This document shows, piece after piece, positions 17,357 through 26,774 of a stretch of DNA of 64,000 bases; the first letter of the stretch is position 1; each line of letters opens with the position of its first letter. The notes beneath the pieces were generated by a model. That model was not told the DNA's origin and did no database searches. It was given only the letters and a program-made list of their open reading frames with translations. Location of the stretch: NCBI RefSeq assembly GCF_009765995.1, contig NZ_LMUI01000046.1:62001-126000 (forward strand), read 5' to 3'. The translations under genes were made by a program, and so were the position numbers. The DNA is from Methylocapsa sp. S129 (GTDB taxonomy: Bacteria; Pseudomonadota; Alphaproteobacteria; Rhizobiales; Beijerinckiaceae).

Positions 17357-17483
17357 GCGTCCGCACAGGAAGTTGAACATCCCAGCAGCTGGCGTCGGCG
17401 CAGGAAAAGCAATCCAATTGATATTACTTCGCAACGCCACCGACCAATGCTCGGTGAGAGACCGACCTCAAAACGTCCACACT

Positions 17484-18359
17484 TCAAGCGCTGGGCCGGT
17501 TAACGAATGCTTCCGCCGACATAACCAGTACCGTAACATTCCCGTATTCGGGGTAGCTGTCGCGCATCCTAGAAACAATTTCTTCGGCCGTAGTTGATGA
17601 AGCGGCCGCCTGAGCAAAGTCGCGTATATACGCCTCCGTCCCGTCCAATATGGCTCCTGCCTCATCGCTGACCCCCGGCTTCTTATGCCCGGCGATCACT
17701 GTCTTTGGCTTCAGCGCTCTAAGCGTGTTCACGCTTTCGATCCAGCGCTTCCATTCCTCAGGGCCAGAGAGGCCAAGCATAAGGTGATTCGAGTTGTAGG
17801 CGACGTCACCTGAGACAACCATCTCCAGGGCGGGAACCCATACCACCGTGCTGGGCGCTATGTCTCCTTGGCTAACGTCAACAATGCGAAGTTGCTCTCC
17901 CTCGAGAGCCATCACGTCCGACGCAAGCGGTTCAGGAAGAGAACTCGGCTTGGCAATATCGACGGCCATCATGTTTTCGAACAATTCCAGCTCTTGCGCG
18001 CGATTTGCACGAATATAGTCAACCACACCTTGGGCGGCCATAACTCGGGCAGTTGGAAAACGGGACAACAAGCGATCCATACCGAAATAGTGATCAGGGT
18101 GTCCGTGTGTGATCAATATGCTCGTCAGCCGTTGACCATGTCGTGCGATACAATCAGCGAGAACGTCAACGTCTTCTATTGCGATGAGTGTATCGATTAG
18201 GATGGCTTCCGTCTTTCCGCATATAAGAGTCGCTGTCGTAGGAGAAAACGTTCCTCCTTTAGGTCCCTTTAGCGGATGCGCGGAGCTAACAAAGACATAA
18301 GCTTGCAACCGCGATAGGCCCGGTTTGCCAAGAGCTGGCTGCTGCAGCACACTGTTCAT
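17484..18359 (-). CDS. MBL-fold metallo-hydrolase
   Basis: 291 residues. The zinc motif is ITHGHPDHYFGMDRLL (H-x-H-x-D-H) at about residue 84-89; further ligands are the Asp in MVVSGDVAYN and the His in VIAGHKKPG. The long insert and the C-terminal helix (AAASSTTAEEIVSRMRDSYPEYGNV) resemble the group of cytoplasmic MBL hydrolases similar to Vmh/glyoxalase II-like proteins; the substrate is unknown. It starts at ATG 18359. A damaged second copy of its 3' half lies at 25336-26774, and similarity between copies continues past the stop codon, showing a segmental duplication. It is convergent with the fahA operon. Confidence 0.9.
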   Translation of the reverse strand: MNSVLQQPALGKPGLSRLQAYVFVSSAHPLKGPKGGTFSPTTATLICGKTEAILIDTLIAIEDVDVLADCIARHGQRLTSILITHGHPDHYFGMDRLLSRFPTARVMAAQGVVDYIRANRAQELELFENMMAVDIAKPSSLPEPLASDVMALEGEQLRIVDVSQGDIAPSTVVWVPALEMVVSGDVAYNSNHLMLGLSGPEEWKRWIESVNTLRALKPKTVIAGHKKPGVSDEAGAILDGTEAYIRDFAQAAASSTTAEEIVSRMRDSYPEYGNVTVLVMSAEAFVNRPSA

Positions 18360-25269: not shown

Positions 25270-25335
25270 GCGCGGTCGCCGTCGCCACGCGTCGAGGGGG
25301 CTCGGTGAGAGAACCAACCTCAAAACGCCCGCACG

Positions 25336-25423
25336 TGAAGCGCCGGGCCGGTTGACGAATGCTTCTGCCGACGTCGCCAATATCGCAGCATTCTCGTAAT
25401 TGGGATAGCTGTCGCGCATCCTA
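25336..25423 (-). pseudogene. 3' end of a duplicated MBL-fold gene, right of the IS630 insertion
   Basis: The frame reads MRDSYPNYENAAILATSAEAF and NRPGA, matching the last 28 residues of the intact protein at 17484. The stop codon of the intact gene (TGA) is changed to TCA here, so the frame reads through. The rest of this copy lies at 26558-26774 beyond the insertion sequence. Similarity to the intact locus continues for about 40 bases past the former stop. Confidence 0.85.
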
Positions 25424-26518
25424 GTGTTGTGATTCCAACGCTTGTTTCGCTTTTGCAACTTTATCGAGGATTTTACTGGTTGTTGCGGTCCAGACGAACG
25501 GCTTGGGGTCTGCGTTGTGGTTGTCCAGGTAACGATTGATACATTGTTCGAGTTCGGCGACGCTGTGGAAGACACCGCGTCGGATGGCGTCCTCGGTGAT
25601 GAGACCGAAGAAGCGCTCGACCTGATTGAGCCATGAGGCCGAGGTCGGCGTGAAATGCAGATGACAGCGCGTGTGGCGCGCGAGCCACGCTTTGACCTTG
25701 GGATGTTTGTGCGTTGCGTAATTATCGCAGACGAGATGCAGATCGAGGTTCTTCGGCGTGCCGCGGTCGATGGTGCGCAAGAAGCGCAGGAATTCCTGAT
25801 GCCTATGCCGGTTCATGCATTCGCCGATGACCTTGCCGCTCGCCACGTCAAGCGCGGCCAACAGCGTCGTGGTCCCGTGCCGTTTGTAGTCATGCGTCAT
25901 TGTCCCGGCGCGGCCTTTCTTCATCGGCAGGCCGGGTTGCGTTCGATCGAGCGCCTGGATTTGGCTTTTCTCGTCGACCGACAGAACCAGCGCTCTTTCT
26001 GGCGGGTCCAAATAGAGGCCGACGACATCGGCGACCTTCTGCTCAAACAGCGGATCGCGCGAGAGCTTGAAGGTTCGCGTCAGATGCGGCTTGAGCCCGT
26101 GCGCTTTCCAGATGCGTTGCACGGAACTGGGCGAAAGACCGGAAGCCTTCGCCATGGAGCGCACGCTCCAATGCGTCGCCGCCGGCGGCTTGGCGTGAAG
26201 CGTCAGGTCCACGACTTTGTTGATCGCCGCCGCCGAAAGCGGCTTCCTGCGCGGGGGACGCGACTCATCTTTCAGGAGCCCTTCAACCCCCATGTCGCGG
26301 TAGCGTCGTCGCCAGCGGCGAACGGTAAGAACGCTCACGCCGACTTCGCGTCCAACGTCAACCGCGCCCATCCCTTCGCCCGCCAACAACACGATGCGCG
26401 CGCGCCAAACCACTTTCTGCGGTGTGTTGCGGTCCCGCGTCAAACGGCTCAGCCGCTCCCGGTCATCTGCCGACACATCAATGCGTTCGATCTTGCCCGT
26501 GCGCCAAGATTCGCACAC
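25421..26518 (-). CDS. IS630-family transposase
   Basis: 365 residues. The N-terminal half has helix-turn-helix segments (GAVDVGREVGVSVLTVRRWRR and SMAKASGLSPSSVQRIWK). The DDE catalytic core is complete: Asp in ALVLSVDEKSQ, Asp in LVCDNYATHK and Glu in SWLNQVERFFGLI. One protein catalyses cut-and-paste transposition into TA dinucleotides. The coding frame ends CAA CAC at the last base of the element, and its TAG stop is made from the duplicated TA plus the flanking G, so termination depends on the insertion site. The start is taken at 26518. The frame is intact. Confidence 0.95.
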   Translation of the reverse strand: MCESWRTGKIERIDVSADDRERLSRLTRDRNTPQKVVWRARIVLLAGEGMGAVDVGREVGVSVLTVRRWRRRYRDMGVEGLLKDESRPPRRKPLSAAAINKVVDLTLHAKPPAATHWSVRSMAKASGLSPSSVQRIWKAHGLKPHLTRTFKLSRDPLFEQKVADVVGLYLDPPERALVLSVDEKSQIQALDRTQPGLPMKKGRAGTMTHDYKRHGTTTLLAALDVASGKVIGECMNRHRHQEFLRFLRTIDRGTPKNLDLHLVCDNYATHKHPKVKAWLARHTRCHLHFTPTSASWLNQVERFFGLITEDAIRRGVFHSVAELEQCINRYLDNHNADPKPFVWTATTSKILDKVAKAKQALESQH

Positions 26519-26557
26519 CCGACAAGATTTTGGAATCTTACGTTAGAGACACAACAC
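25424..26557 (-). mobile_element. Complete IS630-family insertion sequence (1134 bp) in a TA target
   Basis: The ends are GTGTTGTGATTCC and, on the opposite strand, GTGTTGTGTCTCT; the first eight bases are identical. TA lies at both borders (25422-25423 and 26558-26559). The intact paralogous locus shows the empty site directly: there the sequence around 17570 reads CATCCTAGAAAC, while here CATCCTA and TAGAAAC are separated by the element. It carries one intact transposase gene and interrupts the duplicated metallo-hydrolase remnant. Confidence 0.96.
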
Positions 26558-26774
26558 TAGAAACAATTTCTTCGGCCGTAGTTGATGAAGCGGCCGCGTG
26601 AGCGAAGTCGCGTAGGTACGCCTCCGTTCCGTCCACGAAGGCTCCTGCCTCAGCGCCGACGTCGAGCTTCTTATGCCCGGCGATCACTGTTTTTGGTTTC
26701 AGCACTCTAAGCGTCTTCACGCTTTCGAACCAGCGACTCCAGGGCGGGAATCCACACCACCTTACTGGGCGCAA
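26558..26774 (-). pseudogene. Internal part of the duplicated MBL-fold gene, left of the IS630 insertion
   Basis: Reads KTVIAGHKK, GTEAYLRDFA and AAASSTTAEEIVS as in the intact gene at 17484-18359. Before RWFESVKTLR an internal deletion of roughly 80 bases, compared with the intact copy, joins it to the codons for the VVWxPALE segment. The 5' half of the gene, with the zinc-binding HxHxDH, is absent, so this copy was already non-functional without the insertion. Confidence 0.85.

Follow-up and report, generated by a model that had tools for sequence, protein, structure and literature searches.

The window, a 64,000-nucleotide stretch of Methylocapsa sp. S129 DNA, contains an IS630-family element of ~1.13 kb at positions 25421–26560, counted with the CTAG tetranucleotide that lies at each side. 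The element itself, of the IS870 type, occupies 25425–26556 on the minus strand and measures 1132 bp between the CTAGs with ends TG..CA, or 1134 bp (25424–26557) if the duplication is counted as TA only. It consists of short terminal inverted repeats (TGTTGTG..CACAACA) and one long open reading frame with transposase domains, and it is the sole copy in its own genome at E ≤ 0.001. The frame, stop included, occupies minus-strand positions 26518 to 25421, begins with GTG and encodes 365 aa carrying the Pfam domains HTH_32 and DDE_3. The protein scores 268 bits against NCBIfam NF033545 (cut-off 100), which supports the assignment to IS630 made in the initial annotation. Its coding part (25424–26518) has no stop of its own. 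The final codon within the element is CAC, the complement of 25424–25426, and the TAG stop is the complement of 25421–25423, so that the frame does, as had been noted before, reach the element's final base and end on target bases. The CTAG at the transposase 3′ end (25421–25424; TA at 25422–25423 in a 2-bp reading) appears, from its sequence and the co-variation of NTAG in other copies, to be a target duplication, and the second target copy lies at the 5′ end (26557–26560).

The element is inserted in a duplicated gene with a metallo-beta-lactamase fold, remnants of which, on the minus strand and identified by alignment, lie at the low-coordinate side (25300–25420) and at the high-coordinate side (26561–26741) of the insertion. 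An intact paralog of 291 aa (17484–18359, minus strand; Pfam PF00753) carries the empty site CATCCTAGAAAC, with an unoccupied CTAG at 17569–17572. The low-coordinate flank (25300–25423) aligns to 17449–17571 with 104 identities, 19 mismatches and a 1-base gap, and the high-coordinate flank (26558–26741) is identical to 17570–17753 at 163 of 184 positions. When the flanks are joined with TA kept once, the alignment spans 306 columns with 265 identities, 40 mismatches and one 1-base gap; it is continuous across the insertion site, and the bases immediately around the site are identical. Since similarity to the paralog ends at 26741, the interrupted gene copy is a fragment. The region thus holds a truncated second metallo-beta-lactamase copy, 8 kb from the first and ~87% identical to it, that was later hit by the insertion sequence and in which similarity stops abruptly at ~26741.

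The paralogous empty site shows that an insertion took place and that CTAG was present beforehand. The initial annotation had called it the natural empty site; the paralog does align through the site, but at ~87% identity it is not the pre-insertion DNA itself. It had also considered insertion at TA with duplication to be proved. TA is indeed repeated at both ends (25422–25423 and 26558–26559), but because the element borders read G...C, the empty site fits duplication of CTAG as well as of TA, and other copies favour CTAG/NTAG.

Protein similarity yielded relatives from genome_contigs (79 of 558 loci kept) and from viral contigs; others came from sampled genomes by DNA or protein similarity, from plasmids, and from matches to end patterns in which the base following TA was unconstrained. 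Several matches of the loose end pattern were rejected as chance, having no frame or no left end. After 47 partial transposase hits had been excluded, there were 248 complete hits; both ends were found in 228 rows, which represented 152 distinct sites when identical flanks were counted once, and 151 after removal of L031, in which the left end was not identifiable. The 20 excluded complete hits comprised 13 without recognisable ends, among them the IS110-interrupted loci L114, L115, L139, L140, L332, L335 and L027, and seven with weak ends or removed by name (L050, L293, L295, L296 and L298 by name; L257 and L150 by score). None of the 151 scored sites was drawn from a pattern search selected for TAG. 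The 151 sites do not amount to independent lineages, because 45 are near-identical BAL199-type copies (>98% to one transposase) from one genome. No weight was given to contigs terminating precisely at TAG, since one of them (L022) may be no more than a contig break at a single copy.

Across the 151 sites, the flanking tetranucleotides were CTAG/CTAG in 141, GTAG/GTAG in three, TTAG/TTAG in two and ATAG/ATAG in one, and the four discordant sites were CTAG/GTAG (two), CTAG/TTAG (one) and CTAA/CTAG (one). Without the 45 BAL199-type copies, CTAG/CTAG was found in 97 of 106 sites, and the group closest to the window element, itself included, had CTAG/CTAG in 10 of 10. The stop was the target TAG in 127 sites and internal in 24; TAC, TAT or TAA was found as the stop-site sequence at none of the 127, and at none of the 151 distinct sites did the frame read through past an intact element end. 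Earlier, transposase length had been proposed to depend on location, with read-through expected at some 3′ ends. All 127 target-stop sites contradict this by ending in TAG, and the stop does not vary between locations because the element inserts at CTAG. A stop inside other copies, named at the outset as grounds for doubt, does occur in the 24 internal-stop sites, but these are confined to other subclades and absent from the window element's own group; their flanks are CTAG/CTAG in 22, GTAG/GTAG in one and TTAG/TTAG in one. A stricter count with a higher TIR threshold (133 sites) gave the same outcome, except for one contig-end artefact (L050).

Taken together, the sequences make it very probable that this is an IS870-type IS630 element with CTAG-specific insertion, in which the TAG stop is fixed by the target. 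According to this model, the transposase would direct insertion to CTAG, which is a rare tetranucleotide, and duplicate target bases at that site. The coding frame extends to the final base of the element, where TAG is supplied by the target. Since the target specificity is CTAG, termination would be fixed rather than left to chance. Target choice and gene structure would thereby overlap, the DNA specificity of the transposase guaranteeing its own translation stop. There is also a warning for annotation, in that drawing the element borders at TA or CTAG cuts the stop codon off the gene. CTAG is strongly under-represented in the window: each strand has 41 occurrences, where base composition would predict 226 (a 5.5-fold deficit). 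In the BAL199 genome, two IS870-type copies (L071/L199) stand head to tail with one common CTAG, apparently through insertion into the CTAG junction of another copy.

The same flanks could in principle arise if insertion were loose and only copies with a working stop persisted, through selection after insertion. Six sites have a tetranucleotide other than CTAG on both sides, and each of them is NTAG rather than CTAN (two-sided sign test, 0.03), as such selection would produce. Nevertheless, C is still the left base, which is no part of the stop, in 145 of 151 sites, TAA, which would do equally well, is absent on the right, and the internal-stop subclades use CTAG too (22 of 24, both exceptions being NTAG), so that we consider this explanation unlikely. 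Less likely still is insertion at any TA with the stop present by chance and transposase length varying with location. The absence of a stop from the frame itself would accord with it, as would the behaviour of the IS630-family relative ISY100 of Synechocystis, reported in PMC2170065 to insert almost exclusively at TA, which is duplicated. Against it, besides the uniform TAG at the 127 target-stop sites, only 26% of TA dinucleotides in the window precede G and would yield TAG, and 42% would give TAA or TAG; TA lies within CTAG in 82 of 2558 cases (3.2%, both strands). Moreover, in a scan of 385 genomes of the class, NTAG followed the element end GTTRGANTCNATCCA in 33 matches from 9 genomes, and NTAA, NTAC or NTAT followed it in a single match, which was rejected as chance because no transposase frame lies before it, only 7 open codons. 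That the stop belongs to the element, whose own ends would be CTAG..CTAG with nothing duplicated, is the least credible alternative: the 141 sites with CTAG on both sides are by themselves indecisive on this point, but the empty paralogous site already has one CTAG, and each non-C base on the left recurs on the right, which is what copying of the target would produce.

This last feature bears on the length of the duplication that accompanies CTAG-specific insertion. In the six sites with a non-C left base (L020, L022, L036, L043, L240 and L258), two of which are in internal-stop elements, the right base is identical in all six, whereas among the 145 sites with C on the left, three depart from C on the right (Fisher p = 6e-9). 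The GTAG/GTAG flanks of L240 stand alone in its genome, where the 44 other scored copies, near-identical to L240 (45 in total), are CTAG/CTAG. A matching right base argues against duplication of TA only, because that would leave the element's own C before TA. The simplest reading of the flank agreement is that NTAG is duplicated and the element ends are TG..CA; in the window element TA is repeated at both ends, and judging by the other copies the repeat also takes in N and probably G. We therefore favour, with reasonable though not strong confidence, a 4-bp duplication (NTAG) in the IS870 clade of the IS630 family over the 2-bp TA that characterises the Tc1/mariner-IS630 group. Four sites run counter to it, three in which a left-hand C is paired with G or T at the right and one flanked by CTAA (left) and CTAG (right); we assume that these discordant sites (L042, L151, L182 and L248) are later mutations or recombinants. 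A 3-bp duplication (NTA) is also compatible with the data, because the G position never varied on both sides. If the duplication is 4 bp, the host would provide the entire stop codon as well as the wobble base of the sense codon before it, and the last protein residue (His or Gln) would be written by the target. The strand-transfer stagger would then differ inside a family taken as uniformly TA, with implications for the way in which target DNA is held by IS630-type and Tc1/mariner transposases.

A stop codon supplied by the target is not new. IS870 of Agrobacterium was described by Fournier, Paulus and Otten (J. Bacteriol. 1993) as having a CTAG target and a large ORF whose stop is generated by the target (cited in PMC6471742), and the window element is a new example of this arrangement. 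Going by that citation, the two share the IS630 family, the CTAG target and the stop from the target. IS870 copies annotated on Agrobacterium plasmids likewise have CTAG on both sides and a gene that ends on the host TAG. The IS870 transposase differs from that of the window, with identity at 204 of 360 aligned columns and a position on a different branch of the tree. Plasmid records also label as IS870 relatives that are 94% identical to the S. medicae element, and in the protein annotated 'IS630-like element IS870 family', to which the figure of 204 of 360 refers, the CDS ends on a host TAG. The nearest relatives found are those of Microvirga (L002–L008), which have 74–75% protein identity, the same length, CTAG/CTAG flanks and a target stop; they are multi-copy in M. 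tunisiensis, whereas the window element is single-copy, and the records examined for them bear no IS name. Within the wider family, for IS630 of Shigella sonnei, an IS630-associated composite transposon prefers TA in 5′-CTAG-3′ (Tenzen and Ohtsubo 1991, as cited in PMC2170065), a preference that the window element shares along with its family. ISY100 also resembles it in belonging to the IS630/Tc1/mariner family and in its TA target, and moves by cut and paste, but, as described in PMC2170065, uses TA without restriction to CTAG and gives a 2-bp duplication in vitro, against the apparent 4 bp in the group of the window element. Literature searches on stops made by the target turned up only the title of the IS870 paper. 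A 4-bp duplication for the IS870 clade was not found in searches of open-access papers, and the duplication length may be the only point here that is unreported.

The position of the stop appears to have changed repeatedly within the group. On an unrooted tree of 75 transposases, built by a quick method after proteins >96% alike had been merged and the C-terminal 15 residues removed, 7 changes between target and internal stops are required, and at least 6 of these changes are forced by well-supported branches. Because internal-stop subclades use CTAG too, the choice of CTAG is not a consequence of the need for a stop. The likelier direction, as far as an unrooted tree can suggest it, is that CTAG choice permits loss of the internal stop rather than the reverse; the CTAG specificity of the transposase would have come first and the internal stop would then have become dispensable.

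Longer transposase frames were found, and these are due to damage at the element end (IS110-like insertion or truncation), not to the target sequence. In L114 and L115 of Sinorhizobium and in L027 from a metagenome-assembled genome, foreign sequence lies between the terminal CAC and TAG and adds tails of 10 residues (L114/L115) and 6 residues (L027). Both L114 and L115 (the same copies as L332 and L335) contain an element of ~1.5 kb, which we take to be IS110-like from the look of its encoded protein, with different host sequence beyond. A diverged start of the insert is seen at the same CAC/CTAG junction in the unrelated genome of L027. Possibly the IS110-like element targets the end of IS870-type elements. 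When viral_contigs was scanned with a pattern for this IS110-like junction, 10 contig stretches matched, and the transposase was present in only the two from Sinorhizobium. In the plasmid loci L293, L295, L296 and L298 of S. fredii/S. sojae, the last 9 bp of the element are lost and the frame continues for ~83 codons; these loci represent two distinct sites, with two left flanks and the same right junction.
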